Positions 1 to 26,939 of a DNA stretch of 26,939 bases are shown in pieces. This DNA is from a virus: positions 1 through 26,939 of the IMG/VR virus record IMGVR_UViG_3300025314_000086; one strand, 5' to 3'. How positions within the stretch are numbered: the first letter of the stretch is position 1; the number at the start of each line of letters is the position of its first letter. The notes under the pieces are model-generated. The model was not told the DNA's origin and made no database searches. It worked only from the letters and a program-made list of their open reading frames with translations. The position numbers were made by a program, and so were the translations under genes.

Positions 1-10
1 TAAGTTCCTT

Positions 11-110
11 ATAGATCCTTATAGATCCTTATAGATCCTTATAGATCCTTATAGATCCTTATAGATCCTTATAGATCCTTATAGATCCTTATAGATCCTT
101 ATAGATCCTT
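11..110. repeat. Tandem array of ten perfect 10-bp repeats
   Basis: The unit ATAGATCCTT is repeated ten times without a mismatch. It is preceded by a degenerate unit at 1-10 (TAAGTTCCTT) and followed by a decayed one around 115-124. Each unit carries one GATC, so ten GATC sites lie on nearly the same face of the helix at about one helical turn each. The array cannot be coding because every frame meets TAG or TAA. It lies upstream of the promoter at 233-261. Arrays like this can be replication iterons, protein-binding arrays, bent DNA or slippage products; the sequence alone does not decide. The position at the window edge means copy number may be uncertain. Confidence 0.95.
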
Positions 111-146
111 AAGTATAAATCCTTTTAAAGTACTTCTTATGTTTTA

Positions 147-198
147 GTTCTTATATATCTTATAGTCTTAATATATCTTATAGTCTTATTATAAGAAC
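147..198. repeat. Inverted repeat enclosing an 18-bp tandem duplication
   Basis: A perfect 18-bp unit (ATATATCTTATAGTCTTA) occurs twice, at 153-170 and 171-188. The pair is framed by a 9-bp inverted repeat, GTTCTTATA at 147-155 and TATAAGAAC at 190-198. The motif CTTATA is shared with the 10-bp array to the left. The element lies about 35 bp upstream of the -35 box at 233, a plausible place for an activator or repressor site, but function is inference. Confidence 0.85.
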
Positions 199-232
199 GT
201 ACTTTTAGATAATATATAGAACTACTTTACTA

Positions 233-261
233 TTGACTTTTATAAAAATATCATATATAAT
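233..261 (+). promoter_or_regulatory. Sigma70-type promoter
   Basis: TTGACT at 233-238 is followed after exactly 17 bp by TATAAT at 256-261. This is one mismatch from the bacterial sigma70 consensus with ideal spacing. Transcription would begin near 268 and run into the gene at 300. It is the only convincing promoter seen and probably drives the first genes of the rightward cluster. Confidence 0.8.
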
Positions 262-299
262 ATACTTTAAGAGTAGTATACTTATATAGGATATAACTT

Positions 300-620
300 A
301 TGTTATCTATAAATGATTTAGTCTGTTCAGAAGGAACTTTAAATATAGCTGATATTACAAACGTTCTTGCAACTAAAGGTATGTTATTTTATGATACCTT
401 TAGAAGTACAGATCAGGTTAATCTTATAGTTGAGTTCCTAAAGAATATGCATCAACTAAAGGATGCGCCTTTTAGGGATAATATAGATGCCTTTAGTATG
501 TTCTTAAGTACATATGGAGTTATTGTTACTGATAATGTTAAAGGTTGTTATAAGTATTTGTATATGATTGATATAGATAATGTAGAAAAGTTACTTAAGT
601 TATTAGGTATTAGTATCTAG
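300..620 (+). CDS. Hypothetical protein, 106 aa
   Basis: This is the first gene downstream of the promoter at 233-261, with a modest ribosome site (TAGGA at 287-291) 8 bases before the ATG. The product is small, predicted helical and rich in Asp, Leu and Ile. It has no membrane segment, signal peptide or catalytic motif that I recognise. Its place as leader gene of the cluster could fit a small cytoplasmic regulator or accessory protein, but nothing in the sequence shows this. Existence of the gene is well supported; function is unknown. Confidence 0.75.
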   Translation: MLSINDLVCSEGTLNIADITNVLATKGMLFYDTFRSTDQVNLIVEFLKNMHQLKDAPFRDNIDAFSMFLSTYGVIVTDNVKGCYKYLYMIDIDNVEKLLKLLGISI

Positions 621-625
621 AACTT

Positions 626-967
626 ATGCTAAAGTATGTTATATTTGGTATAGTCTTATATATTGGCATCGTCTTATCAGGATCTTATTCAATAGAAGCT
701 GATGAGCTCAAAGATTATTTAAGGACTTTTATTAATCAGTCTTGTTGTTATACTAATGATTGTTGTTGGTCTATTTCAGAATCAGAATTAACAGATTTAG
801 GGAATGGTAAGTATAAAATAAATGCTACAGGACAGATAATAGCTAAGACAGGCGATAGTCCAGACGGAAAGTTCTGGAGATGTGCCTGTGATCTTGTAGG
901 ATACGATTGGATAAAAAGTAATTTATCAAATACAAGATGTTTATATGTACCTTTTCAAGGATCTTAA
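626..967 (+). CDS. Exported Cys-rich hypothetical protein
   Basis: The 113-residue product begins with a typical signal sequence (about residues 1-20: a Lys, then a hydrophobic run ending LSGS). The mature part has seven cysteines: paired C40/C41 and C46/C47, then C86, C88 and C105. The order SCC..DCC, then SPDG..WRCAC, then TRCLYVP resembles a family of small secreted proteins of unknown function that I associate with Alphaproteobacteria and their phages. Disulphide pairing in the periplasm is likely. No lipobox is present. It starts 5 bases after the previous gene. A role at the cell envelope, such as superinfection exclusion or envelope modification, is speculation. Confidence 0.75.
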   Translation: MLKYVIFGIVLYIGIVLSGSYSIEADELKDYLRTFINQSCCYTNDCCWSISESELTDLGNGKYKINATGQIIAKTGDSPDGKFWRCACDLVGYDWIKSNLSNTRCLYVPFQGS

Positions 968-970
968 TAA

Positions 971-1117
971 ATGCCCTTTAGCAAAGTACAATTAGGAAAA
1001 AATAAAGGTAAATATAAATCTCCATCAGGTAGAGTGTTTACTAAGAAACAAGTAGCCTTATATTATGCTACAGAAGGTTTTAAGAAAAACTATAGAAAAA
1101 GAAGGAATAGGGAATAA
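971..1117 (+). CDS. Small basic protein, 48 aa
   Basis: The ATG lies 3 bases after the preceding stop and the frame is open for 48 codons. The protein is strongly basic, especially the last 15 residues (KK, RKRRNRE end). The central part, SPSGRVFTKKQVALYYATEG, resembles short phage proteins that carry an SPSGR..T..Q....YAT pattern; their function is unknown. A nucleic-acid-binding role would fit the charge. The stop codon overlaps the ATG of the 12-codon mini-ORF at 1117. Confidence 0.65.
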   Translation: MPFSKVQLGKNKGKYKSPSGRVFTKKQVALYYATEGFKKNYRKRRNRE

Positions 1118-1155
1118 TGGAATTTATTTATGTAAGACTAATAGGAGATAAATAA
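1117..1155 (+). CDS. 12-codon mini-ORF, copy 1 (putative coupling leader)
   Basis: The reading frame MEFIYVRLIGDK starts on the A of the previous stop (TAATG) and its stop directly abuts the next ATG at 1156. Its 3' end contains the Shine-Dalgarno-like AGGAGA used by the gene at 1156. A nearly identical mini-ORF at 2000-2038 has the same length and the same boundaries. The peptide may matter less than its translation, which would carry ribosomes across the junction. The frame is seen directly; translation is inference. Confidence 0.45.
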   Translation: MEFIYVRLIGDK

Positions 1156-1521
1156 ATGGCTGTTACTGCATTAAATATTGTTAAGACAGATAATCCCCTT
1201 GTTTGGAAGATCTATTGGACTGGTCTTGCAAAAGGAGACACAGGCGCTCCTTTTAGAGCAGATTTAATTCATGCAGCAGGAGGTTCTGATAGATCGGCTC
1301 AAATAGTGGGTACATTTGATTCTGCTACCATTACCATCGAAGGAAGTAATGACGGCACTAATTATACTACATTAACAGATCCTCAGGGAAATGCATTGTC
1401 GTTTACGACTGCTGCTATAGAAGCAATCTCCGAATATACGTTATTTATTCGTCCCAATGTAGCGGGAACGGGAGGAACTACTTCTCTGGGAGTTTATATG
1501 GCTGTGAAAGGAACCAACTAA
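1156..1521 (+). CDS. Putative virion surface/decoration protein, 121 aa
   Basis: This is a short beta-rich protein with alternating hydrophobic strands, Gly and Thr, and the stretch ITIEGSNDGTNYTTLTDPQG at about residues 58-77. That stretch is reminiscent of small phage structural proteins with an immunoglobulin or jelly-roll-like fold. There is no signal peptide. Its start immediately follows mini-ORF 1, whose end supplies the ribosome site. It overlaps the next start by one base (TAATG). It is the first of a run of small beta-rich genes, which suggests capsid or fibre decoration. No enzyme motif is visible. Confidence 0.6.
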   Translation: MAVTALNIVKTDNPLVWKIYWTGLAKGDTGAPFRADLIHAAGGSDRSAQIVGTFDSATITIEGSNDGTNYTTLTDPQGNALSFTTAAIEAISEYTLFIRPNVAGTGGTTSLGVYMAVKGTN

Positions 1522-2000
1522 TGAGTACTTCACAGGCACTTCAAGATTTATTATTTGTTGCACGTCGTTTCAAAGGTGTAGTTGATATTATTCCAGAATT
1601 GGAAAAGATCTCTTCAATGAAAGCGACGATCCAAGAGTTATCCAGTACTATTGATTCCAAAAAGAAAGAAAGAGATAAATTTTCCACTGTTGTAGACAGT
1701 CTTGAAAAAGAAAGTAAAAAAGTTCAAGATCTTATTACGGCTAAGTTGGCAGAAACCCATAGTGAAGCGCAAGAAGTAATTTCGATGGCTAAACAAAGAG
1801 CTGAAGAAGAGACCGCTAGACAGGCTAAAGATCGTGTAGATTTAGTAAACAAATTAAGTAAAGAAAACGATGAGCTTTTAGCATCTATTGAGTCTCACAG
1901 AATGGAATTACGTAAGGTTCAAGCTATGCTTAAAGATGCCGAAGAAAACCATAATAAGATTTTGAATGAAATTTCTAAATTAAAGTTGAGGCTAGGCTAA
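1521..2000 (+). CDS. Coiled-coil protein, 159 aa
   Basis: Almost the whole chain from about residue 25 to 155 is charged heptad sequence (Lys, Glu, Asp, Leu, Ile), as expected of a long coiled coil. There is no signal peptide or membrane segment. It sits between two predicted beta-rich structural proteins and could be a fibre shaft, chaperone or scaffold. A small terminase subunit was considered because none is otherwise visible, but there is no N-terminal helix-turn-helix I can recognise. Its stop overlaps mini-ORF 2. Confidence 0.6.
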   Translation: MSTSQALQDLLFVARRFKGVVDIIPELEKISSMKATIQELSSTIDSKKKERDKFSTVVDSLEKESKKVQDLITAKLAETHSEAQEVISMAKQRAEEETARQAKDRVDLVNKLSKENDELLASIESHRMELRKVQAMLKDAEENHNKILNEISKLKLRLG

Positions 2001-2038
2001 TGAAATTTATTTATATAAAGCAAATAGAGGATAAATAA
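2000..2038 (+). CDS. 12-codon mini-ORF, copy 2 (putative coupling leader)
   Basis: The reading frame MKFIYIKQIEDK starts on the last base of the upstream stop codon and ends immediately before the ATG at 2039. It matches copy 1 at 1117-1155 in length, in frame, in the FIY core and in the ...GATAAATAA end. It carries an AGAGG-like ribosome site for the next gene. The repeated junction suggests either duplication of a gene unit or a reused translational coupling device. Confidence 0.45.
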   Translation: MKFIYIKQIEDK

Positions 2039-2470
2039 ATGGCAGCCCTTAATAAATTTAATGCTTTTGTAGAGCATTTAGATGAAAAGGTTCATGATTT
2101 AGGTGCAGATACTTTGAAGGTAATGTTAGTTCCTTCAGGCAGTGCACCTGTCGCCACTAATACAGTTAAAGCAGATTTAACGGAAATTTCTGCTGGAAAT
2201 GGATATACAGCGGGAGGTACACAAGCTACTCAAGTTTCTTCGTCTCAAACATCAGGTACTTATAAATTAGTTTTAAATGATGTTACTTTTATTGCATCAG
2301 GTGGTAGTATTGCTACATTTAGATATGTAGTCTTATATAATGATACTCCCACGTCTCCTGCAGATCCTTTGATCTGTTGGTATGATTATGGTGCAGATGT
2401 TGTAGTTACAAGTGGCAATTCATTTGTAGTTGATTTTGATGGTACTAATGGAGTCTTTACGGTAGCCTAA
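2039..2470 (+). CDS. Phage structural protein family member, 143 aa
   Basis: The N-terminus (NKFNAF..HL.E..HDLGADTLKVML) followed by ADLTEISAGNGYTAGG at about residues 45-60 is a pattern common in small proteins encoded near tail fibre genes of many tailed phages. They are probably virion components of unresolved function. The rest is beta-rich and Ser/Thr/Gly-rich. There are no membrane or catalytic motifs. The start abuts mini-ORF 2. It overlaps the next gene by one base. Confidence 0.7.
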   Translation: MAALNKFNAFVEHLDEKVHDLGADTLKVMLVPSGSAPVATNTVKADLTEISAGNGYTAGGTQATQVSSSQTSGTYKLVLNDVTFIASGGSIATFRYVVLYNDTPTSPADPLICWYDYGADVVVTSGNSFVVDFDGTNGVFTVA

Positions 2471-2829
2471 TGTCAAAAATTCATGTTCTAGGACGCTCAG
2501 GTCCGAATCAATATCGAATTATGCTTCATGTGGATACTCCTGTAGGAAACAATTCCGCAGGAATTCCCTGGAATACTGTTCTAGTTAACTCTGGAAGAGC
2601 TATGTCCCGAATGACAGAAGGTACTGGTGCAGGTCAGATTACTTCTGCAGAACTTGCTAAAGTTTTGTCTGGAGATGTAATTGAAATTGCATATGATTTT
2701 GGGATAAACCCTGCGTTAACTAATGCAGAAAGAAATGCTACTATGGATTTTGAGATAATCAAACTAACATCTGAAACTGTATCTGAATTACAAGCCAATT
2801 TAAAATGGTTTGGAGCTACTAGAGGATAA
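2470..2829 (+). CDS. Hypothetical phage protein, 119 aa
   Basis: It begins at a TAATG overlap with the preceding gene and ends one base before the next ATG. The protein is soluble and of mixed fold, with a probable beta N-terminus (IHVLGRSGPNQYRIMLHVDT) and helical C-terminal half. I do not recognise a domain. Its place in the run of presumed virion proteins suggests a structural or fibre-assembly role, which is guilt by association only. Confidence 0.6.
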   Translation: MSKIHVLGRSGPNQYRIMLHVDTPVGNNSAGIPWNTVLVNSGRAMSRMTEGTGAGQITSAELAKVLSGDVIEIAYDFGINPALTNAERNATMDFEIIKLTSETVSELQANLKWFGATRG

Positions 2830-2830
2830 T

Positions 2831-3328
2831 ATGGCTACAATTACTCCAGTATATGGTACTAAGGTTACTATGACTATTGGTCTCGCTACGACACCATTAG
2901 CAAGTGATACAAATCTTTTAGCGGGGCGGCAAAGTACCGCAGTCGATAATAAAGATACAGATGATGCGATAGACTGTCTTGTAGGAGGTCTTGTTACGAC
3001 TGGAGCAACTCCGACAGCAAGTCGTTTAATTGGTGTGTTTGCTTATGGATCATATGACGATACGAGCTTTCCAGGCGATTTAACGGGATCGGACGGAGAT
3101 ATTACTGTCTTATCCTTGAGTCTTCTGCAACTTTTGACGTGGATTCCGACAACTAATACGGCTAATGAAGGGTACACTTGGGGGCCATATTCGGTTGCTC
3201 AAGCTTTTGGAGGAATTCTTCCTGTTAGATGGGGTATTTTTATTGTTCATAATACAGGGGTAGCTTTAAATGGAACTGCCGGTAATCATGAAGTGGAGTA
3301 CTTTCCAGTAAAATTTGAGACTGCGTAA
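2831..3328 (+). CDS. Hypothetical virion-associated protein, 165 aa
   Basis: I chose the ATG at 2831, preceded by AGAGGATAAT, rather than the in-frame ATG at 2810. The upstream start would overlap the previous gene by 20 bases and add a dissimilar N-terminus. The C-terminal part, with WGPYSVAQAFGGILPVRWGI at about residues 117-136 and a final EYFPVKFE segment, is the type of sequence seen in small phage proteins near tail or head fibre genes. No catalytic motif is visible. It overlaps the next start by one base. Confidence 0.6.
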   Translation: MATITPVYGTKVTMTIGLATTPLASDTNLLAGRQSTAVDNKDTDDAIDCLVGGLVTTGATPTASRLIGVFAYGSYDDTSFPGDLTGSDGDITVLSLSLLQLLTWIPTTNTANEGYTWGPYSVAQAFGGILPVRWGIFIVHNTGVALNGTAGNHEVEYFPVKFETA

Positions 3329-4071
3329 TGGCAATTTCGTTAAATGGCACCAATCAATCTTTAACGAATTCAACGCCACAAGTGACGGCGGAACCGATTA
3401 CGGTTGGTATATGGGTCAAGGTAGATTCTATAAGTGCAAATAGGACAATCTGGGCATTATCGGACAATGGTGCCAACAGCTTTATAAGACTCGGTATGTC
3501 AGGAGCGAATGTCTGGCAGGTAACATCCCAGGATAGCGCCGGAGTAAACAGTACGGCGGGTGCGGGAACGGTTGTTGGGAATCTTTGGTTCTTTATAGTA
3601 GGCCGGTGGATATCCTCGACTTTACGCTATATTGACATTCTTAATCCAGATGGTTCGATTTCTCAGAACTCTAATGCAGGGTCAAGAACCGTATCTGGTC
3701 TTGATATTGCATCTTTGGGGAGAAAGTATGCCGGGACGAATCAATGGTTGGATGGGGATATTGCGGAATTTTGGTGGACAAACTCAGATATTTATTCAGC
3801 AGGTAATTTAACGGATGGTTGGATTAGACAGCTTGCTTATGGAGGCCCTTTTTCGATTTCATCAGTACAAAACAGGATTATGGAATATAGATCTTTTAGA
3901 TCAACTATTATTGAAAGAACAGGTACTACGGATGAAGTTTACTTAGGAAGAAATTTAAATACACAGACATGGACAAATGATGGTGGTGTACAGAATGTTG
4001 AACATAATAGTTTGCCGTATTGGAAAACACCTCCTCCTAATAAAATAAAAACAATTGTTTCTTCAACATGA
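3328..4071 (+). CDS. LamG / concanavalin A-like lectin domain protein
   Basis: The 247-residue product opens with the signature of a LamG-type jelly-roll domain. MAISLNGTNQSL is followed by PITVGIWVKVDS at about 24-35, then a GNLWFFIVGRW-like strand near 84, and the DGDIAEFWWTN strand near 142-152 that closes such folds. These domains usually bind glycans. In a phage this suggests receptor binding or fibre decoration. There is no signal peptide. About 80 further residues follow the lectin core. It overlaps the next gene by 4 bases (ATGA). Carbohydrate binding itself is inferred. Confidence 0.7.
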   Translation: MAISLNGTNQSLTNSTPQVTAEPITVGIWVKVDSISANRTIWALSDNGANSFIRLGMSGANVWQVTSQDSAGVNSTAGAGTVVGNLWFFIVGRWISSTLRYIDILNPDGSISQNSNAGSRTVSGLDIASLGRKYAGTNQWLDGDIAEFWWTNSDIYSAGNLTDGWIRQLAYGGPFSISSVQNRIMEYRSFRSTIIERTGTTDEVYLGRNLNTQTWTNDGGVQNVEHNSLPYWKTPPPNKIKTIVSST

Positions 4072-4535
4072 ATCTTAGACGAAGATTTTTTCCTGAAGGA
4101 GGAGTTTCTACAACTACTTTAACTGCAGTAACAGGCTCCTATGCAATAAATGGGCAATCTTGTTTATTTAAAATAAATCAGATGTCTTCTGTTGGGAACT
4201 ATGCAGTAACAGGAAATACGGTTAATTTAAGACATAATATGTTAGCAGGTGCAGGAAGTTATGTTGTAACGGGTATTTCAGTTTTATTTAGGACTGTTTT
4301 ACCATCATCTGCAGGATCATATGGATTAACTTTGATTAATACTCCTTTAAAGATTTTACAGAATACAACGGTAGGATCTTATGTCATAACAGGAGTTTCA
4401 AATCTGTTTAGAAAAATATTAACGTCAAATTCAGGAAGTTATACGATGGTTGGATATCCAATAACAGATTTAGTAGGAGGGCCAGTAGGAGACGATTGGA
4501 TTTTTAGACTTAGGAAACGTATTAGGATTAAATAA
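4068..4535 (+). CDS. 20-residue repeat protein (fibre or surface)
   Basis: The protein is built from six copies of a repeat with an exact 20-residue period, pattern (A/S)xxGSYxVTGxxxLFRxxLx. GSY or GNY cores fall at residues near 24, 44, 64, 84, 104 and 124. The N-terminus is basic (NLRRRFFP) and the C-terminus ends in Arg/Lys. Regular GSY..TG repeats of this sort occur at the ends of phage tail or head proteins and are expected to stack as beta strands. Its translation is coupled to the LamG gene by an ATGA overlap, so the two products may act together. Function is inferred. Confidence 0.65.
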   Translation: MNLRRRFFPEGGVSTTTLTAVTGSYAINGQSCLFKINQMSSVGNYAVTGNTVNLRHNMLAGAGSYVVTGISVLFRTVLPSSAGSYGLTLINTPLKILQNTTVGSYVITGVSNLFRKILTSNSGSYTMVGYPITDLVGGPVGDDWIFRLRKRIRIK

Positions 4536-4750
4536 TGGTAGATCTTGGTATTGAAATAGGCATTCTTAAAGCTGAATTGAGAAATGTCTGTCGTGAGATA
4601 GAAGAATTAAAAGAAAGTCAAAAACTTTTACTTAAATTCATGTATAATATACAGGGAGGAAAAGCATGGTTCTTTGGCATACTAACTATTTCAGCAGCAA
4701 TGGGTGCAATTATAAGTAATTTTTTCGGCATAATCTTTCCACATAAGTAG
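4535..4750 (+). CDS. Coiled-coil plus one-TM small protein (XhlA/holin-like)
   Basis: The 71-residue chain has a charged helical N-terminal half (about 8-35, with EIEELKESQKLLLKF). A single hydrophobic segment follows at about 45-67 (WFFGILTISAAMGAIISNFF), with a short basic tail. This two-part layout resembles XhlA-type and other small phage membrane proteins near lysis genes, some of which assist holins. Here it lies 11 kb from the lysis cassette and next to a CAP-like gene, so another envelope role is possible. It begins at a TAATG overlap with the repeat protein. Confidence 0.55.
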   Translation: MVDLGIEIGILKAELRNVCREIEELKESQKLLLKFMYNIQGGKAWFFGILTISAAMGAIISNFFGIIFPHK

Positions 4751-4756
4751 GTTTTT

Positions 4757-5305
4757 ATGTTAACATATTCAAAATTAATACATGAAGTATATACTCTTCT
4801 GGTTACTAAGTGGAAGAAGACACGTCTAGTTATGTCTCAGGAAGAATTTAATGTGGCTTCTAATAAATTAACACATGCTTATAACGCTTTATCAGCTTAT
4901 GAAGCTACTTATTCACGTCCACAAGGTTTGAATAGACCTCCGTTGCCCAAGGATATATTTGATGCAGAAGCTCAAGCATTAACTTTGATTTCTGCTGAAA
5001 GGGAGAGACATGGAATGTCTAAATTGTCCTTGAATGCAGATTTGAGTGAGTTAGCTAGAAATTATAGTGACGATTATATTGACAATACAGATATTTCAAA
5101 TTTAACAAATACTGAGTATTCCTTTTTTGTGTTTACCGCACAAGTTTATTCAGGTGATAATGCCGTAAAACAGATGCATGATGCGACGGTAAAAGATCCT
5201 AAACAATATAGTTTTAAGATGTTATCATCTAAAGCTAAAGTAATCGGAATTGGCATTTCTAAAGAGAACAGAAAAACTGCTTTGACCGTAATATACGCAG
5301 GATAA
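4757..5305 (+). CDS. Degenerate CAP (SCP-like) domain protein
   Basis: Residues about 68-182 match the course of a CAP domain. A first helix holds ALTLISAERERHGMSKL, then LSLNADLSELARNYSDDYID, and the C-terminus KVIGIGISKENRKTALTVIYAG corresponds to the usual IG.G......Y..Q.F strands. The His and Glu residues of the usual CAP cavity are not evident: the equivalent of the first His falls in YIDNTDISN and no ENI motif follows. The first 65 residues are a separate helical region without a signal peptide. It sits 5 bases before the terminase gene, where a small terminase is often found. The role is unknown; CAP homology is moderately supported. Confidence 0.6.
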   Translation: MLTYSKLIHEVYTLLVTKWKKTRLVMSQEEFNVASNKLTHAYNALSAYEATYSRPQGLNRPPLPKDIFDAEAQALTLISAERERHGMSKLSLNADLSELARNYSDDYIDNTDISNLTNTEYSFFVFTAQVYSGDNAVKQMHDATVKDPKQYSFKMLSSKAKVIGIGISKENRKTALTVIYAG

Positions 5306-5310
5306 TTCGG

Positions 5311-6867
5311 ATGATAAAAAAAATCTCTGAGGAACATCTTCAAAAACAGATGTTGGCAGAGTCTGATTTAGAGGAATTTATTAAACTCGTCCATCCGAAA
5401 AGATTGTTAGGAAATATTCACAGAGAAATTATTCACTGGTGGACTAGACAAGAAGCGAAACAACACCAATTGCTGCTACTTCCCAGAGATCATGGAAAAT
5501 CGGCATTACTTGCATATAGAGTTGCCTGGAGAATAACTAAAGATCCTACATTAAGAGTTCTTATTATTTCTAGTACATCCAATCTGGCTGTTAAACAATT
5601 AAAATTTATTAAGGATATTTTGTGTTCAAATATTTATCGTTTTTATTGGCCGGAGATGGTTGAAAAAGAAGAAGCTAAAAGAGAGAAATGGACAGAAAAA
5701 GAAATATCTGTCGATCATCCTAAACGTAAAGATGAGAGTATTAGAGATTCGACGATCTTTACAGCAGGTTTGACTTCTAATATTACCGGACTTCATTGTG
5801 ATATCGCTGCTCTAGACGATGTAGTTGTTCAAGGAAATGCTTATATTGCGGAAGGACGTAATAAAGTAAAAGAACAGTATTCTTATTTGTCTTCTGTTGA
5901 AAGCGCGGATTCAGAAGAATGGGTTGTCGGAACAAGATATTATCCTACAGATTTATATTCAGATTTAAGTGAGATGGAGGTCGAGAGTTTAGATGAATTT
6001 GGACAAGTTGTTAAATTTGAGCCTTTATTTGAAGTCTTTGAGAGACAGGTTGAATCTGCGGGGGACGGAACTGGAGAATTTCTTTGGCCCCGTCAACAAA
6101 GATCTGATGGCAAATGGTTCGGGTTTGATTCCGAAATCCTGGCCAAAAAGAAAACACATTACATTAGTAAAATTCACTTCAGGGCACAATACTATAATGA
6201 TCCGCACGACATCGCTTCCTCTCCAATCCAAAGAGACGTGTTTCAATACTACGATCAAAACTACATCTCAAAAAGAGATGGAAAGTGGACCTTTAAAGGA
6301 GAACGTTTGAATGTTTGTGCAAGTGTCGATTTTGCCTATTCTTTAGGTAAGAAGAGTGACTTTACTTCTATTGTCGTACTTGGAGTTGACCGCCAACATA
6401 ATTATTATGTTTTAGAAATAGATCGTTTTAAAACTGACAAAATTTCAGAATATTTTAATAGAATTTTGAAATTACATGAAAAATGGGGTTTCAGAAAGAT
6501 AAGAGCAGAGGTAAGTGTTGCTCAGATAGTCATTGTCAAGGATTTGAAAGAGAATTATATACGTCCGTATGGTATTGCCCTGGCCATTGAAGAATACAGA
6601 CCTTCACGTTGGCATGGATCTAAGCAAGAGAGAATAATGGCTATATTAGAACCTAAATATGCTAATAAACAAATTTGGCATAATCAAGGAGGTAATTGTC
6701 AGGCTCTTGAAGAGGAACTTTTATATGCAAATCCTCCTCATGATGATATTAAGGATGCTTTAGCTTCAGCAGTAGATTTTGCGGTTGCTCCTTCGAGTTT
6801 ATTTGACATTCAACAAAAGGTTACACATGAATTTAGATATCACAGAAAGTTTGGGGGGGTAGTTTGA
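5311..6867 (+). CDS. terL: Terminase large subunit
   Basis: This is the ATPase-nuclease motor that packages DNA into the prohead. The N-terminal ATPase has the Walker A-like PRDHGKSAL at residues 58-66 and Walker B LHCDIAALDD at 161-170 (acidic D169/D170). A motif-C-like GTRYYPTD starts at 207. The RNase H-like nuclease domain has candidate metal ligands D340 in VDFAYS, E400 in IRAEVS, and D478/D479 and D482 in HDDIKDA. Its length of 518 aa is normal for TerL. The gene overlaps the portal start by 4 bases. A partner small subunit was not identified. Family assignment is secure; the packaging mode cannot be told from this alone. Confidence 0.96.
   Translation: MIKKISEEHLQKQMLAESDLEEFIKLVHPKRLLGNIHREIIHWWTRQEAKQHQLLLLPRDHGKSALLAYRVAWRITKDPTLRVLIISSTSNLAVKQLKFIKDILCSNIYRFYWPEMVEKEEAKREKWTEKEISVDHPKRKDESIRDSTIFTAGLTSNITGLHCDIAALDDVVVQGNAYIAEGRNKVKEQYSYLSSVESADSEEWVVGTRYYPTDLYSDLSEMEVESLDEFGQVVKFEPLFEVFERQVESAGDGTGEFLWPRQQRSDGKWFGFDSEILAKKKTHYISKIHFRAQYYNDPHDIASSPIQRDVFQYYDQNYISKRDGKWTFKGERLNVCASVDFAYSLGKKSDFTSIVVLGVDRQHNYYVLEIDRFKTDKISEYFNRILKLHEKWGFRKIRAEVSVAQIVIVKDLKENYIRPYGIALAIEEYRPSRWHGSKQERIMAILEPKYANKQIWHNQGGNCQALEEELLYANPPHDDIKDALASAVDFAVAPSSLFDIQQKVTHEFRYHRKFGGVV
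6853..6859 (+). promoter_or_regulatory. G7 tract before the portal UUG start
   Basis: Seven consecutive G residues lie inside the last codons of terL, 4 bases before the TTG start of the portal at 6864. No better Shine-Dalgarno sequence is present. A pure G tract paired with a UUG start is unusual in this A+T-rich genome and suggests deliberately tuned or coupled translation of the 12-copy portal. Confidence 0.4.
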
Positions 6868-8708
6868 CAGGAAGAGTTCTTGAATTAAATGACGTAATCC
6901 AACCTGATCAAATGGCAGTTAGAATAGCTGAACGTTGGGTTGAGTGGGATCTTCTTCGTGAAAATAAGAAGAAGGATTGGGAAGAACTCCGTCGTTATGT
7001 TTATGCTACGGATACTACTCAGACAACTAATTCACAATTACCTTGGAAGAATAAGACGACTATTCCAAAGTTATGTCAGATACGTGACAGTCTTTATTCC
7101 AACTATGTTGCATCAATGTTTCCTCAAAGAAAGTGGTTAATCTGGTCGGCAGATGAGAAAAAGTCAGATTCTGTTTTAAAAAGGGATTCGATTGTTAATT
7201 ATATGTCCTGGGCTATTGAACAACCTTCATTCAAAAATGAAATTGATAAAATTGTTTTAGATTATATTGATTTTGGAAATTGTTTTGCAACTTTTGAATG
7301 GTTAGATCAACGGGTAGAACGTGAGTCAGATGTTCAGACAGGTTTTGTAGGACCGGCTGCAAGACGTATTAGCCCTTTGGATATTGTATTCAATCCAGTT
7401 GCAGAGAATTTTGAGTCTTCCCCCAAGATTATTAGATCTTTGGTTTCTATAGGAGAATTGAGAGAACTTTTACAACGAATGTCCACCGATGAGAATATAG
7501 CTGAGTACGAAGAGTTATGGAAATATTTCAGGGATATTCGCGGAAATGCAACTTCTTTTGAAGGCGAGTGGCTTCAGAAAGATAATTTATATCAAGTAGA
7601 TGGTTTTACGTCCTTTAGAGATTATCTTAGAAGTGATATTGCTGAAATTTTAACTTTTTACGGAGATTTATACGATCCGCTTACAGATATGTTTTATAAA
7701 AATCACGTAATAACAATAGTTGACCGTCATAAATTAATAGGAAATAAACCTAATCCAAGTTTCTTTGGATATCCGCCTATATTTCATACTTCTTGGCGAA
7801 AGAAACAGGATAATCTTTGGGGAATGGGACCATTAGATAATTTAGTGGGTCTTCAGTATCGCATGGATCATGTTGAGAATATGAAGGCTGATGTATTTGA
7901 TTTAATTACTTTTCCAGTGCAAAAGGTCAAAGGTTTTGTCGAAGCATACACATGGCAACCTGGAGAAAAGATCTTTTTAGGAGATGAAGGTGATGTAGAT
8001 TTAGTCGTTCCTCATGTTAATGCTCTTCAAGCTAATTTCGAGATTCAGAATATTGAACGGTTAATGGAAGAGATGGCAGGAGCGCCTAGAGAAGCGATGG
8101 GTTTTAGAACTCCTGGTGAAAAGACTAAATATGAAGTACAACGTTTAGAAAATGCTGCTGCAAGAATATTTCAGAATAAAATACGTCAATTTGAAGAGCA
8201 ATTAGTCGAACCTCTTCTTAATTCTATGTTGGAGTTGGCGCGACGTAATTTATCAGGAACTATTTCAATGCGCATTTTTGATGATGAATTAAAAGTGGCC
8301 TCTTTTCAAGATCTAAGTCCAGAAGATATTACGGGAGTAGGTAGGATTAGGCCGATTGCAGCTCGACATTTTGCAGAACAAGCTGAATTAATCCAGAATA
8401 TTACTAATTTAACAAACTCTAATTTGTGGCCTACTGTTCAGATGCATTTTTCATCGGTTAAATTGGCAAAGATTTTAGAAGATATTTTTAATTTAAAAGA
8501 TTATGGAGTGGTTTTACCTTATGTCTCTCTATCTGAAAGGGCGGATGCACAAAAATATATGAATGTCCTTGAGGAACAGATTGCTATGGAAACCTCGACT
8601 ACTTCTGGAATTGGAGAGGATCTTGATCTTAGTGAGATGGATCAAATGATGAACATGGGCAAGGAACAAACTAAAGATGAAGAGAATACTACAGGATTGG
8701 CTGCGTAA
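6864..8708 (+). CDS. Portal (head-tail connector) protein
   Basis: This is the dodecameric portal that forms the DNA entry vertex and the docking site for TerL and tail. The 614-residue length, position directly after TerL and before the scaffold, and the sequence fit podovirus-type portals. An N-terminal helical region (RIAERWVEWDLLRENKKKDW) is followed by a beta/alpha core. Around residue 400-440 comes the stretch MEEMAGAPREAMGFRTPGEK and a long helix with FQNKIRQFEEQLVEPLLNSM. The C-terminus is acidic and Met-rich. The TTG at 6864 overlaps the terL stop; the next Met is residue 17, so UUG is the better start. It ends with a one-base overlap with the next gene. Confidence 0.9.
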   Translation: MTGRVLELNDVIQPDQMAVRIAERWVEWDLLRENKKKDWEELRRYVYATDTTQTTNSQLPWKNKTTIPKLCQIRDSLYSNYVASMFPQRKWLIWSADEKKSDSVLKRDSIVNYMSWAIEQPSFKNEIDKIVLDYIDFGNCFATFEWLDQRVERESDVQTGFVGPAARRISPLDIVFNPVAENFESSPKIIRSLVSIGELRELLQRMSTDENIAEYEELWKYFRDIRGNATSFEGEWLQKDNLYQVDGFTSFRDYLRSDIAEILTFYGDLYDPLTDMFYKNHVITIVDRHKLIGNKPNPSFFGYPPIFHTSWRKKQDNLWGMGPLDNLVGLQYRMDHVENMKADVFDLITFPVQKVKGFVEAYTWQPGEKIFLGDEGDVDLVVPHVNALQANFEIQNIERLMEEMAGAPREAMGFRTPGEKTKYEVQRLENAAARIFQNKIRQFEEQLVEPLLNSMLELARRNLSGTISMRIFDDELKVASFQDLSPEDITGVGRIRPIAARHFAEQAELIQNITNLTNSNLWPTVQMHFSSVKLAKILEDIFNLKDYGVVLPYVSLSERADAQKYMNVLEEQIAMETSTTSGIGEDLDLSEMDQMMNMGKEQTKDEENTTGLAA

Positions 8709-8971
8709 TGTACACAGTCTGGACTAAACACCTTCAAGACCAGGGAGAGAAAACTAAGCTTGAGAATTCTATTCTTAGTGCTAAATCCGTTCTTGATCGT
8801 TTACATGATATTTTAGAAGAAGATGAAAAAGGTTTGGACAGATCTGAGTCAGATATAAAAACCTTTGATACTCCTGGATGGGAGTTTAAACAAGCATATA
8901 AAAATGGATATCGTGCATGTCTAAATATGTTAAAAACATTAGTTAATTTAGATTTGCAAAAACAATTATAA
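8708..8971 (+). CDS. Small protein between portal and scaffold, 87 aa
   Basis: It starts at a TAATG overlap with the portal gene. The product is helical and charged, with a Glu/Asp-rich middle (DILEEDEKGLDRSESD) and a conserved-looking C-terminal segment TPGWEFKQAYKNGYRACLNM at about 56-75. Similar small ORFs occur between portal and scaffold genes of marine-type podoviruses, without known function. A head-assembly accessory role is possible from its position only. Confidence 0.65.
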   Translation: MYTVWTKHLQDQGEKTKLENSILSAKSVLDRLHDILEEDEKGLDRSESDIKTFDTPGWEFKQAYKNGYRACLNMLKTLVNLDLQKQL

Positions 8972-8983
8972 GCGAGGAAATAA

Positions 8984-9802
8984 ATGACCGATAGTTTATT
9001 AAACGAAGACCAAAATTTTACTCCAAATATAGACCCTGATAAAAATTATCTTGAAGAGCTTACCAGTGATGGGAAGAAATTTGATAAGAGCAAATATGCT
9101 TCCGAACAAGAATGGTTACAAGCTCTTGCCAAAGGTAAATATGTATCTGATTTGTACGTCGATCACTTAGAAAAGCGCTTAGATGAAATGCGCGAAGACT
9201 ATACAAAAATCAGAGAAGAATATAACGCGGGACCGAAGCTGCAGGAATTATTAGATCAACTCTCCAAACAGCAACTTACAAGTAGGAATAACCTTGGCCC
9301 GAACGAAGATGATCATCCGCCCGACAAATCTAACCTTTCTGATTCTAGTTTTGATTTTAAAGAAGTTGAGAGTCTTGTTTTGTCAAAAATTCAAGAACAT
9401 GAAAATTCTAAAAAACAAAATGAGAATTTTGATTTAGTTAGAAATAAATTAAAAGAACGTTATGGTTCTGATTATCAGAACGTTCTAAAAGAACAGATAG
9501 AGTCTTTAGGATTAACAGAAGATTTTGTTAATGATCTTGCTAAAAAACATCCTACAGTTTTGTATAGAACTCTAGGTTTAGATAAAGATGAAAGACGTGA
9601 AAATTTCAGTTCTCCTCCGCGATCTAATGTAAGAAGTGACTCCTTTTTACCTCAAGTACAAAAACGTACTTGGGCATATTATCAAAAGATGCGGAAAGAG
9701 AATCCTAAACTTTATCACAATCCTAAAACAATTGTTCAAATGCATGAAGACGCCAGAGAACTTGGCGCAGACTTTGAAGATGGTGATTTTCATTCCATTT
9801 GA
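8984..9802 (+). CDS. Capsid scaffolding protein
   Basis: The 272-residue product is hydrophilic and highly charged. It has coiled-coil-prone helices at about 52-95 and 120-160, a flexible Pro/Asp/Ser-rich linker near 105-118, and a basic Tyr-rich C-terminal part (KRTWAYYQKMRKENPKLYHN). It lacks hydrophobic core sequence. Its position between portal and major capsid genes is the standard place for the assembly scaffold (T7 gp9 equivalent), which directs prohead formation and is later lost. The ribosome site GCGAGGAAATAA precedes the ATG. No protease motif is visible, so a scaffold-protease fusion is unlikely. Confidence 0.75.
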   Translation: MTDSLLNEDQNFTPNIDPDKNYLEELTSDGKKFDKSKYASEQEWLQALAKGKYVSDLYVDHLEKRLDEMREDYTKIREEYNAGPKLQELLDQLSKQQLTSRNNLGPNEDDHPPDKSNLSDSSFDFKEVESLVLSKIQEHENSKKQNENFDLVRNKLKERYGSDYQNVLKEQIESLGLTEDFVNDLAKKHPTVLYRTLGLDKDERRENFSSPPRSNVRSDSFLPQVQKRTWAYYQKMRKENPKLYHNPKTIVQMHEDARELGADFEDGDFHSI

Positions 9803-9829
9803 ATATAACTAAATTAAGGAGACTAACTA

Positions 9830-10786
9830 ATGGCTAGTGGCTTTACAATTGCTACTAATGAGCATCTTTCAAGAAGCAATCTTTATACTAGGCAGCTTAA
9901 AGAATTGCTCTTAGATGATTTGTATGCCATGCGGTTTGTCAAAGTTTTAACAGATTTCCCTGACGGCGCTACGTTTAATATTCCTAGCGTCGGTGAGGCT
10001 GAAACTGCTGATTTCGCTGAAGGTCAGTCCATCAAATACAATAAGATGGATACTGGTAATTTTACCTTTAGTTTTGATCAGTATAAGTATTCAGGACTTG
10101 CTATGTCAGAGAAGTTTAAGAGGGACAGTTATTATTCTAACGAAGTGTTAGCTATGTTTGTTCCCCGTGAACATCGTGCTTTGATGGAAGCTGTTGAAAC
10201 TAGAGTTCTCTCACGAGGGCCTAATACACAAACTGCAAGTAATGCAAATCAAATAAATGGCGCTGATCACCGTTGGGTTGGTTCCGGTACTAATGAAGCA
10301 ATGGCACCTGTCGATTTTGCGAAGGCACTGCATTCTTTAACGAAGGCAAATGTTCCTTTAACGAATCTAATTGCTGTTGTGGATCCTTCTGTTGCGTATT
10401 CATTACAAACGCAACCGAATATTATTAACATGCTTTCACCAATGCCTATGTATGAAGATGTAGTCAAGGCTGGAATGGTTACTGGATTTAAATTCAGGTT
10501 TAACCTTTTCGGATTCGACGTTTATGTTTCTAACTATCTTCCTTCGGGCATTTCAGAAACTGTTGGTAGTAAGACCGTAACAACTGGTGTGGCAAATCAA
10601 TTCTTCTCAGCGACTGCTGGCGACACTCTTCCAATTGTGGGAGGGTTTAGACAGCCGCCGACTGTGCAATCGAAGTTTAACATCGACTTGCAACAGATGG
10701 AGTACGTTACGATTGCCGAATACGGATTCAAGCTCTATCGTCCTGAAAATATGGTCGTTGTCCTCACGGACACGGACGTCGTGTAA
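9830..10786 (+). CDS. Major capsid protein (HK97 fold)
   Basis: This would be the main shell subunit. It is 318 residues, with an N-terminal arm followed by PDGATFNIPSVG (about 43-54), typical of the E-loop/P-domain entry of HK97-fold capsid proteins. A helical P-domain segment lies around 105-130 (EVLAMFVPREHRALMEAVET), and the C-terminal beta-rich A-domain ends in GFKLYRPENMVVVLTDT. It follows the scaffold gene and has the strongest ribosome site in the window (TAAGGAG at 9815-9821, 8 bases from the ATG), as expected for the most abundant protein. Codons in its 3' half use C-ending triplets more than neighbouring genes, consistent with selection for high expression. No cross-linking residues are assigned. 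Confidence 0.9.
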   Translation: MASGFTIATNEHLSRSNLYTRQLKELLLDDLYAMRFVKVLTDFPDGATFNIPSVGEAETADFAEGQSIKYNKMDTGNFTFSFDQYKYSGLAMSEKFKRDSYYSNEVLAMFVPREHRALMEAVETRVLSRGPNTQTASNANQINGADHRWVGSGTNEAMAPVDFAKALHSLTKANVPLTNLIAVVDPSVAYSLQTQPNIINMLSPMPMYEDVVKAGMVTGFKFRFNLFGFDVYVSNYLPSGISETVGSKTVTTGVANQFFSATAGDTLPIVGGFRQPPTVQSKFNIDLQQMEYVTIAEYGFKLYRPENMVVVLTDTDVV

Positions 10787-10798
10787 TAGGAGAGTAAC

Positions 10799-11287
10799 AT
10801 GGGATGGCTAAATAGTGATGGCTTGTACCTGGAATTTGGTACGGCCAAAGCGACTGCTAATACAGCAGGCGAATATATTACCACTGGTGCTCTTCGTGAA
10901 ATTGAAGTTAAGATTGATCTGACTACTTTGGGCACTAGTCCAGCAATTCAATCAGATACAGTCTTTATTCCTGCGGGCGTCAGAATTGAAGAAGTGGAGA
11001 TCGTCACACAGACGGCGGCTACTTCGGGAGGTTCTGCTGTTCTTAATGTCGGTTTAATTCAGACTGATCGTTCCACAGCAATTGATGTTGATGGACTTAT
11101 TGCAGCTATTGCGATTACATCGCATGATGCAGCCGGTGAGAAAACGGTTCTTCGAGTTGGATCTACTGGCGCAGGTGCTTTGATTGGCACGACTACTGCG
11201 AATGTAGGAATGCTTGTGGCAGATTATGATACTGCGGCGTACACCGCTGGTGTTATTTATGTGCGCATTCGTTACTACAGACCATAA
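10799..11287 (+). CDS. Putative capsid decoration/cement protein, 162 aa
   Basis: The gene lies 12 bases after the major capsid gene with its own AGGAGA ribosome site (10788-10793). The product is small, Ala/Thr/Gly-rich and almost entirely beta. It has no Cys, membrane or enzyme motif, and ends in a strand IYVRIRYYRP. Small abundant beta proteins just downstream of the capsid gene often decorate or stabilise the shell. The call rests on position and composition, not on a recognised family. The hairpin at 11303-11334 follows it. Confidence 0.6.
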   Translation: MGWLNSDGLYLEFGTAKATANTAGEYITTGALREIEVKIDLTTLGTSPAIQSDTVFIPAGVRIEEVEIVTQTAATSGGSAVLNVGLIQTDRSTAIDVDGLIAAIAITSHDAAGEKTVLRVGSTGAGALIGTTTANVGMLVADYDTAAYTAGVIYVRIRYYRP

Positions 11288-11302
11288 GGGCACTTATTAA
11301 CA

Positions 11303-11334
11303 ATGGGGAGGAGAGCTTTTGCTCTCCCCTCCAT
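11303..11334. terminator. Strong hairpin after the capsid-decoration genes
   Basis: A 14-bp stem with a TTTT loop forms between 11303-11316 and 11321-11334. The seven loop-proximal pairs are perfect (GGAGAGC/GCTCTCC); then there is one A/C mismatch and one G-T wobble. No T-tract follows on either strand, so it is not a classic intrinsic terminator. More likely it is a leaky attenuator, an RNase processing site or an mRNA-stabilising structure that adjusts capsid against tail expression. Confidence 0.55.
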
Positions 11335-11349
11335 AAAATGGAGAAATAA

Positions 11350-11877
11350 ATGGCAACTAATGTTGATCTTGGAGGGTTAGACCTCATTGTAAATAACATT
11401 AGGACTGGAGCTTCTGCTCCGAGTCAAGCTGGAACGTATCAAGCAACGGATGCAGATAGATATGTTGCTGCAGGATCTACATTAACTTTGACTGTCGCAA
11501 GTCATAATAAAAAAGTTATTAAGTTGGATACTGCTGCAGGAAGTACTGTAACTCTTCCTGCTTCAACAGGTTCTGGAGCTTTATTTAGATTTATTGTAAC
11601 TGTAATTGCAACGAGTAATAATCATATTATTAAAGTGGCAAATGCAAATGACGTTATGGCTGGTGTTATCTTTTCAATGGATGATACTTCAGCTAATGCG
11701 GTTGCTTTTGCTGCGGGTTCGACAGCAGATACGATTACCCTAAATAGAACAACTACAGGTTCTGTTACTAAGGGTGAGTGGATTGAAATCGAAGATATTG
11801 CCGTTAATTTGTGGCATGTCAAAGGTTTTGTCACGAATTCAGGTACGCCTGCATCACAGTTCTCAGCTACTGTGTAA
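11350..11877 (+). CDS. Putative head/decoration protein, 175 aa
   Basis: The ATG is preceded by GGAGAAATAA. The product is beta-rich. Its N-terminal segment (VDLGGLDLIVNNIRTGASAP) may act as an anchor. A core follows with VIKLDTAAGSTVTLPASTGS at about 57-76 and repeated TIT/ITLN strands near 135. That core resembles beta-helix or jelly-roll phage virion proteins in which a time-zero constant profile is predicted for each subunit. No enzyme motif is seen. It is isolated between two hairpins (11303-11334 and 11892-11912), unlike all other genes in the cluster, and so may be expressed at a different level. Decoration function is inferred from position. Confidence 0.55.
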   Translation: MATNVDLGGLDLIVNNIRTGASAPSQAGTYQATDADRYVAAGSTLTLTVASHNKKVIKLDTAAGSTVTLPASTGSGALFRFIVTVIATSNNHIIKVANANDVMAGVIFSMDDTSANAVAFAAGSTADTITLNRTTTGSVTKGEWIEIEDIAVNLWHVKGFVTNSGTPASQFSATV

Positions 11878-11891
11878 TAATGTTAATCGGG

Positions 11892-11912
11892 AGTCCCTGG
11901 TCAACAGGGACT
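11892..11912. terminator. Perfect 8-bp hairpin before the gp11-like gene
   Basis: AGTCCCTG at 11892-11899 pairs perfectly with CAGGGACT at 11905-11912 around a GTCAA loop. Outer CGG/CCG bases could extend it across small bulges. There is no T-tract, so termination would be weak or factor-dependent. It sits in the 56-base gap between the decoration and tail genes, one of the largest gaps in the cluster, so a role in attenuating or processing the late mRNA is likely. Confidence 0.55.
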
Positions 11913-11933
11913 TTCCGGGCATAAGGATTTCAG

Positions 11934-12704
11934 ATGAAATATACACTTCTTCAAATGACACAGGAAATACTATCTAGTATGGATAGTGATGAAGTGAATT
12001 CTATTAACGATACGACTGAAGCACAACAAGTTGCTCGTTGTATTCGTCAGGCATACTATGATTTAATAGATGATTTAGATCCGCCTGAGCATTATAGCAT
12101 GTTTGAGTTAACAGATAGTGGGGACAATGCTAAACCAACACTTATGACTGTTCCTGCGGATATTAATTTAGTTCGATGGGTTAAGTACAATAAGATTGCA
12201 AATGGGGAGACTGCTCCCAATTACCAATATATAGAATTTCTTCCTATGGATGATTTTCTTAGAATGATGTATAATTTAAATATAGACGAATCTAATATAG
12301 CTTCTTTTGACATTACAATAGATTCGGATAGTATCGCGGTTAATTATATAAACGACCATTCACCGACTTATTATACTTGTTTTGGAGATGATAATACATT
12401 AATTTTTGATAGTTATGATGTCGCTGTTGATACTCGTCTTGCAAAAGCTAAAACTATTTGTTACGGAAAGAAATTAATTACATTTTCTTTGTCAGATAGT
12501 ACTACTCCAGATTTGGATGAACCCTATTTTGTAAGATTATTGAACGAAGCGAAGTTATTGACTTTCGCTGAACTAAAATCAACGGATCATGCAATTGCTA
12601 ACAGAAATGCACGAAGATCCAGAACTAAATCAGAAGCTAGAAAATATCGAGTTAAAAAAGAAAGTTATTTTGATCAATTACCTAATTTTAGTAGAAAAGG
12701 TTAA
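11934..12704 (+). CDS. Tail tubular protein A-like (T7 gp11-like) adaptor
   Basis: The 256-residue product has the layout of podovirus head-tail adaptors. An N-terminal helix (TLLQMTQEILSSMDSDEV) precedes TTEAQQVARCIRQAYYDLID at about 30-49. Then comes a beta domain with LMTVPADINLVRWVKYN near 63-79, and a long basic C-terminal helical region (RNARRSRTKSEARKYRVKKE). Such proteins form the ring joining the portal to the nozzle. It has an AAGGA ribosome site at 11923-11927 and is followed by a fibre-like gene and a gp12-like gene, which supports the call. Identification is by pattern and synteny. Confidence 0.75.
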   Translation: MKYTLLQMTQEILSSMDSDEVNSINDTTEAQQVARCIRQAYYDLIDDLDPPEHYSMFELTDSGDNAKPTLMTVPADINLVRWVKYNKIANGETAPNYQYIEFLPMDDFLRMMYNLNIDESNIASFDITIDSDSIAVNYINDHSPTYYTCFGDDNTLIFDSYDVAVDTRLAKAKTICYGKKLITFSLSDSTTPDLDEPYFVRLLNEAKLLTFAELKSTDHAIANRNARRSRTKSEARKYRVKKESYFDQLPNFSRKG

Positions 12705-16223: not shown

Positions 16224-16460
16224 TTGAATACTATAGTAATTATTTTGGTTAGAGCGGTTTTTGAGTGGTTTATGCTGCTCTGGGATCGCTTTAATCAAAT
16301 TAGGGCTTATATAGAAAAAGGTAGACAAGAAGTTAAATCGGAAATTGATAAAAAGGAACAGCAGATCAATGCTGAAGTTGAAAAATTACGCAATACCAAT
16401 ATTACTTTCGATGCTGCTATTGATGAGTTGCGTAAGCGCTACAATCGTAGTAAAGACTAG
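16224..16460 (+). CDS. i-spanin (Rz-like)
   Basis: The 78-residue product has an N-terminal membrane anchor at about 3-20 (TIVIILVRAVFEWFMLLW). A periplasmic charged coiled coil follows at about 28-72 (EKGRQEVKSEIDKKEQQINA and beyond). This is the typical layout of inner-membrane spanins, which link to an outer-membrane lipoprotein to fuse the two membranes at the end of lysis. It starts with TTG 2 bases after the holin stop. The o-spanin reading frame begins inside it. Function is inferred from layout and context rather than sequence identity. Confidence 0.72.
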   Translation: MNTIVIILVRAVFEWFMLLWDRFNQIRAYIEKGRQEVKSEIDKKEQQINAEVEKLRNTNITFDAAIDELRKRYNRSKD

Positions 16461-16623
16461 TTGTGTTGTAATTGATCCTCCTACTGAAATTGTAGTTAAT
16501 GTTTTAGCTACGATTAGAGATTTGGAATCTCGTCAATGGGTTGTTCAATTATCTAAATTGTATAATGTTTGGGATAATAAATTAATTTGTGACACTATAA
16601 AACATATAGGTTCAATAAGATGA
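16369..16623 (+). CDS. o-spanin lipoprotein (Rz1-like), embedded start
   Basis: In the +1 frame within the i-spanin gene, the ATG at 16369 opens an 84-residue product. It has a lipoprotein signal: MLKLK, hydrophobic PILLSMLLLM, then SC with Cys21 as the lipidated residue. The lipobox L-M-S-C is slightly non-standard at -2. The mature part has 64 residues with one PP motif near 39 and two more cysteines. A nested or overlapping Rz/Rz1 pair is typical of phages of Gram-negative hosts. A TTG at 16345 could give an 8-residue longer form, but the shorter start gives a cleaner signal peptide. The end overlaps the next ATG (ATGA). Confidence 0.7.
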   Translation: MLKLKNYAIPILLSMLLLMSCVSATIVVKTSCVVIDPPTEIVVNVLATIRDLESRQWVVQLSKLYNVWDNKLICDTIKHIGSIR

Positions 16624-26730: not shown

Positions 26731-26766
26731 AAAAGAGCCCCCTAGGCTTACGCCTGGGGGGCTTTT
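26731..26766. terminator. Strong bidirectional intrinsic terminator
   Basis: AAAAGAGCCCCCTAGGC pairs with GCCTGGGGGGCTTTT around a TTAC loop. The stem is about 13-15 bp, with five consecutive C-G pairs and G-U wobbles. On the + strand TTTT ends the stem and AGTTT follows; on the - strand TTTTT follows. It therefore stops the rightward late transcript and also leftward transcription from the right, implying convergent genes beyond the window or the small ORF at 26784-26885. Confidence 0.9.
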
Positions 26767-26783
26767 AGTTTGTAGTCGGCGGA

Positions 26784-26885
26784 CTACTCACGGTTTCTTC
26801 TTGTCTTTCTATTTTTACTCGCCTTGTTATGCTTTACGAAAGTCTGTCTCTTGGAAAGCATACACGGCCTTAAGAGACGTGGCAT
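26784..26885 (-). CDS. Possible small basic protein, 33 aa (leftward)
   Basis: The frame reads MPRLLRPCMLSKRQTFVKHN and ends RKTRRNRE. It is the only plausible leftward gene and points at the bidirectional terminator. The ribosome site is weak. The basic end RKTRRNRE resembles the last residues of the + strand 48-residue protein at 971-1117 (RKRRNRE). No promoter is visible inside the window. Because it is very short, with low sequence complexity, and overlaps two inverted repeats, it may be spurious or the DNA may encode an RNA instead. Confidence 0.3.
   Translation of the reverse strand: MPRLLRPCMLSKRQTFVKHNKASKNRKTRRNRE
26828..26878. other. Interleaved inverted repeats (possible pseudoknot)
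   Basis: TATGCTTT at 26828-26835 can pair with AAAGCATA at 26855-26862. GTCTCTT at 26846-26852 can pair with AAGAGAC at 26872-26878. The two stems are interleaved, as in an H-type pseudoknot, in a noncoding stretch (or a small leftward ORF) after the terminator. Either strand could form it. Stems of 7-8 bp can arise by chance, so this is a candidate only. Confidence 0.35.
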
Positions 26886-26939
26886 TGTCGCTCAGCATGA
26901 TGATGTCTTTGGTTTTGCTTTATTAAGATATTGTTGAAT

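Follow-up and report, generated by a model that had tools for sequence, protein, structure and literature searches.

What is a perfect array of short repeats doing at the very start of a viral contig? The window analysed here is an entire IMG/VR contig of 26,939 bases, classed as linear, and near its left end a 10-bp unit containing GATC is repeated without a mismatch. An earlier note on this DNA had proposed four roles for the array: a replication iteron array, a SeqA/Dam-like methylation sensor, a phage promoter enhancer or a packaging signal.

The array and its genomic setting

The ten perfect 10-bp copies described in the earlier note are confirmed by TRF (positions 6-111, period 10, 10.6 copies, 100% match, score 212) and by an exact periodic span over the same 106 bp (Table 1). 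All six reading frames meet stop codons every 30 bases, and the array is therefore noncoding. Window positions 1-300 contain 520 7-mer repeat pairs, compared with 81 ± 18 in shuffled sequences, which is far above chance. The array scores 96.5; the runner-up among noncoding stretches of period 7 to 25 in the window scores 23. With only 5 bases between the array and the contig end, there is little sequence from which to judge its left boundary and copy number, and neither has independent support.

Table 1. Positions of the array and other features in the window.
Feature	Position	Strand	Remarks
Sole sequence left of the array, TAAGT	1..5	.	Contig end
Perfect tandem array	6..111	.	TCCTTATAGA repeated ten times, followed by 6 bases of a further copy; noncoding in all six frames
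Degenerate CTTATAG/CTTAATATA repeat	149..193	.	18-bp period, 2.6 copies; CTTATAG at 159 and 177
Sigma-70 promoter	233..261	+	TTGACT-N17-TATAAT, 11/12; counterpart of the structural promoter that follows the terminus signature in relatives
First ORF of the structural arm	300..620	+	106 aa, no family match
Terminase large subunit	5311..6867	+	phrog_38; ~61% to Siovirus terminases
Portal / head-tail adaptor	6864..8708	+	phrog_332
Major capsid protein	9830..10786	+	phrog_267
Strong hairpin terminator, end of the structural arm	26733..26766	.	Occupies the place of the cobavirus inter-arm terminator

The array contains ten GATC sites, one per 10 bases, at positions 14, 24 and so on to 104. These had been thought to lie on the same DNA face at every turn, which holds for neighbouring copies but not across the array: with 10.4-10.6 bp per helical turn, a 10-bp unit makes the sites rotate by 14-20 degrees per copy, or 125-183 degrees from end to end. 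Nor is the array directly upstream of the first promoter. The order is as claimed, but the -35 box starts at 233, which leaves the array ~122-227 bp upstream of it. The observation that GATC is not avoided elsewhere in the window was correct (119 sites, 97 expected).

In all, 232 noncoding bases precede the promoter in the window. The flank between the array and the first ORF (112-300) contains CTTA/TAAG 10 times, compared with 4.8 in shuffled sequences, 0.6% of which reach 10. CTTATAG itself occurs at 4 other sites in the window and is not enriched there.

Searches for the array gave no matches. Zero matches were found to an exact two-unit pattern or to the right flank of the array in a viral contig collection, and to a 2.3-unit pattern in a genome contig collection. 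BLAST of the array sequence also returned nothing, but its low-complexity filter may hide some matches. No second perfect noncoding array of short period with four or more copies turned up in 2.24 Mb of related phage sequence.

The contig carries a structural arm that runs rightwards, with genes assigned by family matches to terminase, portal, capsid, tail and internal virion proteins. To judge from the homologous terminase, portal and capsid in this characteristic arm, the virus is a Zobellviridae-like podovirus. The closest terminases are those of Celeribacter phage P12053L and Lentibacter phage ICBM1 (~61%), and the portal and capsid agree. Two overlapping ORFs within the arm (16224-16460 and 16345-16623), the second of which has a weak Rz-like spanin match, are likely to be an overlapping lysis gene pair. 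Past the terminator, a leftward ORF with ~33 basic residues may lie within window positions 26767-26939, and a convergent early arm perhaps begins here.

For comparison we used 61 IMG/VR relatives, several of which are ~50 kb long. The ORF at 300-620 retrieved no relatives, the region 626-967 gave one uninformative GC-rich match, and a megablast search of window 1-12000 against phages gave no matches. As a route to relatives, phrog_644 was set aside as too widespread. One contig, L009 (IMGVR_UViG_3300025174_000269), has 100% protein identity to the window genes from ~4757 to 11600 and lacks the array region. It comes from IMG dataset 3300025174 and would appear to be a second assembly of the same virus.

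The terminus region in related phages

The ICBM1 record has 172-bp direct terminal repeats (DTRs) annotated in an ORF-free region between the two genome arms. DTRs of 159-173 bp were shown by PacBio sequencing, and the inter-arm region was used to place the ends of related phages (PMC6775973). At the ICBM1 DTR boundary we found a signature consisting of a G-run (GGGGGTCGGGGGGTC or similar), approximately TGAATTACACC and then AAAATATCTCACAGAAATT, with the structural genes to the right. Pattern matching or inspection by eye identified the signature in ~17 relatives, though only weakly in some. Versions of varying strength occur in Siovirus, MEP401, ICP2 and the majority of IMG/VR relatives whose sequence includes the region; carriers include ICBM1 itself (L107, ~39960-40000) and the inter-arm regions of G004, G007, G008, G009, G011, G012, G013, L028, L042, L053 and others. 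It is a candidate recognition or cut site for the terminase. In G012, the A/T part of the signature is doubled in tandem, 30 bp apart (reverse-complement positions 21891 and 21921). Contig L054 starts inside the signature (positions 1-25), which suggests that contigs are sometimes interrupted at the physical end of a genome.

Downstream of the signature, the relatives generally have a sigma-70 promoter with 10-12 consensus matches. Read from left to right, Siovirus, MEP401 and G013 have the signature, then short repeats, the promoter and the first gene. Signature and promoter are separated by one to three leftward genes in the nearer soil relatives, where most of the repeats fall on the DTR/early side of the signature. 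A search of window positions 1-300 did not find the signature, and the terminus must thus lie further left, beyond the contig end. We infer that it is within ~1 kb of that end.

Short degenerate repeats abound in the relatives' terminus regions. Of 17 genomes, 8 have a 7-mer repetitiveness above z = 3 on one or both sides of the signature. The corresponding figure is 8% for single control stretches, or ~15% when either of two sides may count; the value for G013 includes a TA run. L042 contains a degenerate period-10 array (76% match) ~220 bp from the signature. The earlier note had named related phage genomes as a check on the array; they provide repeat-rich terminus regions, but neither the unit TCCTTATAGA nor a perfect array was found in any relative examined. 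An occurrence of ATCCTTATAGA in L012, considered as a conserved unit, was dropped as a coincidence and read as lying inside a short ORF.

Two words contained in the array were counted in the 17 terminus regions. CTTA/TAAG occurs 134 times, compared with 74.5 in shuffled sequences, giving a z value of 8.2 that is optimistic because the word had been noticed by eye before testing. In 8 of the 17 regions z is at least 2; enrichment is absent in several relatives (ICBM1, P12053L, ICP2 and G004). When all 4-mers were screened, CTTA/TAAG came behind only GGGG, TATA and ATAT, making it the best-supported word that is neither G-rich nor TA. GATC is not enriched in these regions (14 occurrences, 17.8 in shuffled sequences). 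What the unit shares with the relatives is therefore CCTTA, not GATC.

Short repeats at other phage termini

Terminal short repeats of the T7 type have been known for decades and, to our knowledge, have no agreed function. Those of T7 are of a CCTAAAG type and are named SRL and SRR, for left and right short repeats. In the T7 genome (NC_001604), CCTAAAG-type repeats occur with 13-bp spacing at 175-338, just inside the 160-bp terminal repeat. The array described here resembles them in consisting of tandem short (7-13 bp) noncoding units of similar overall length. Its place may correspond too: the promoter side is seen in the window (233-261), and the terminal repeat would lie outside the contig, judging from the relatives. 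The differences are that T7 has degenerate 13-bp units beside a known terminal repeat, whereas the units here are perfect and 10 bp long, and that this virus belongs to a different family and has a different type of promoter. The CCTAAAG-related word of T7 is not shared by our unit. Thus, the two are the same kind of element from different sequence families.

A further comparison is offered by Yersinia T7-like phages. Phage WX2 (L197, OP219460) has a 12-bp array at 448-553, ATCCTAACGACC repeated 8.8 times with 98% match, in a place that aligns with the T7 repeats. A stretch shortly after it is taken for a phage RNA polymerase promoter on account of its resemblance to T7 promoters. The fPS phages are reported to have 11-34 repeats separating the terminal repeat from the first promoter, so that the distance between these two varies, and the genomes of these T7-like phages are most variable near both terminal repeats (PMC5923468). 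WX2 resembles our virus in having a near-perfect array in what is probably a comparable place. It differs in its 12-bp unit and in the putative phage RNA polymerase promoter that follows, where our virus has a sigma-70 promoter. The WX2 array and our unit have TCCTWA in common, perhaps by chance.

The other point of reference is the virus's own group. Siovirus/Cobavirinae phages (ICBM1, P12053L, SIO1) have a similar ORF-free inter-arm region, sigma-70 promoter and structural arm, and their terminus region combines the signature with short AGGTAAC/TTACCT repeats. Unlike the array, these repeats are few, degenerate and based on another word; the DTR, on the other hand, has been demonstrated there.

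Role and origin of the array

We consider it somewhat better than even (probability roughly 0.55) that we are dealing with a short tandem repeat near the genome terminus, of the T7 SRL/SRR kind, which would act in cis at the concatemer junction. It looks like a new example of a known, still unexplained feature, akin to the T7 arrays in form and putatively in place. Among the four roles first proposed, a terminus-related element such as a packaging signal is the best supported, since the array precedes the structural promoter and falls in what is the genome-end region of the family, and T7-like phages have comparable arrays; the terminus itself is not in the window. The array would be located in the noncoding segment between the packaging terminus, left of the contig, and the structural sigma-70 promoter. 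On this reading it arose when a CTTA-containing word was amplified in tandem; degenerate copies of that word are present in its own flank and in the relatives' terminus regions. The earlier note's suggestion of recent amplification agrees with the identity of the copies and with the lack of such copies in all relatives seen. At the concatemer junction, the array could provide repeated binding sites or a spacer for junction processing and terminase assembly; alternatively, it might hold late transcription clear of the cut site. We infer both the cis action of the repeats and the adjacency of array and terminus.

In a more elaborate version, which we regard as quite unlikely, Zobellviridae-like phages would generally have a conserved terminase-cut signature flanked by fast-evolving, lineage-specific arrays. 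A phage protein would read these through their helical spacing and couple concatemer cutting to the structural promoter, the present array being the purest case.

Repeat-rich termini in a second podovirus group, with another promoter type and beside a conserved signature, suggest a recurrent feature worth testing and not a T7 oddity. The signature should also help to locate physical genome ends in metagenomic Zobellviridae-like contigs.

The main rival to a terminus-proximal element is a neutral minisatellite, in which slippage or unequal exchange recently made ten copies in fast-evolving noncoding DNA without any specific role. The identity of the copies, the absence of the unit pair from the viral and genome collections, the different words and lack of a perfect array in relatives, and the variability of fPS genomes near their terminal repeats are all consistent with such an origin. 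Short-period noncoding arrays are rare elsewhere, however, yet recur at both Zobellviridae-like and T7-like termini, and one word is common to several genomes. We consider neutrality a real but distinctly less probable explanation.

Action as a promoter enhancer is possible. In its specific form, a phage regulator would bind cooperatively to phased CTTATAG sites and activate or time the promoter at 233-261. The succession of array, degenerate sites (159 and 177), strong promoter and first structural gene is as expected for such an operator, and structural promoters are conserved across the group. The reading is weakened by the strength of the promoter, which is already 11/12 to consensus, by a distance of >120 bp combined with a drift of about half a turn, and by the presence in many close relatives of a leftward gene upstream of the equivalent promoter. 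CTTATAG is also not enriched elsewhere in the window, and no regulator gene was identified; we thus consider an operator unlikely. As for a replication iteron array, the analysis turned up nothing in its favour: no initiator gene was found among the family matches in this half of the genome; the early arm lies outside the contig, and in the named relatives the annotated replication genes are on that other arm.

Distortion of the copy number, or of the very existence of the array, by assembly at a contig end is decidedly improbable. No second contig covers the array, which begins almost at the contig end, and the only identical contig stops short of it. Nevertheless, 106 bp fits inside a typical short read, there is non-repeat sequence on both sides and finished T7-like genomes hold comparable arrays.

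P1 pac and SeqA-type elements are clusters of GATC sites. Despite ten such sites at 10-bp spacing, a Dam/SeqA-like methylation sensor or a methylation-dependent packaging site like P1 pac is very improbable here, as the relatives lack conserved GATC in their terminus regions and a Dam-type methylase family was matched in only one of 17 relatives. The GATC within each unit is most likely incidental.
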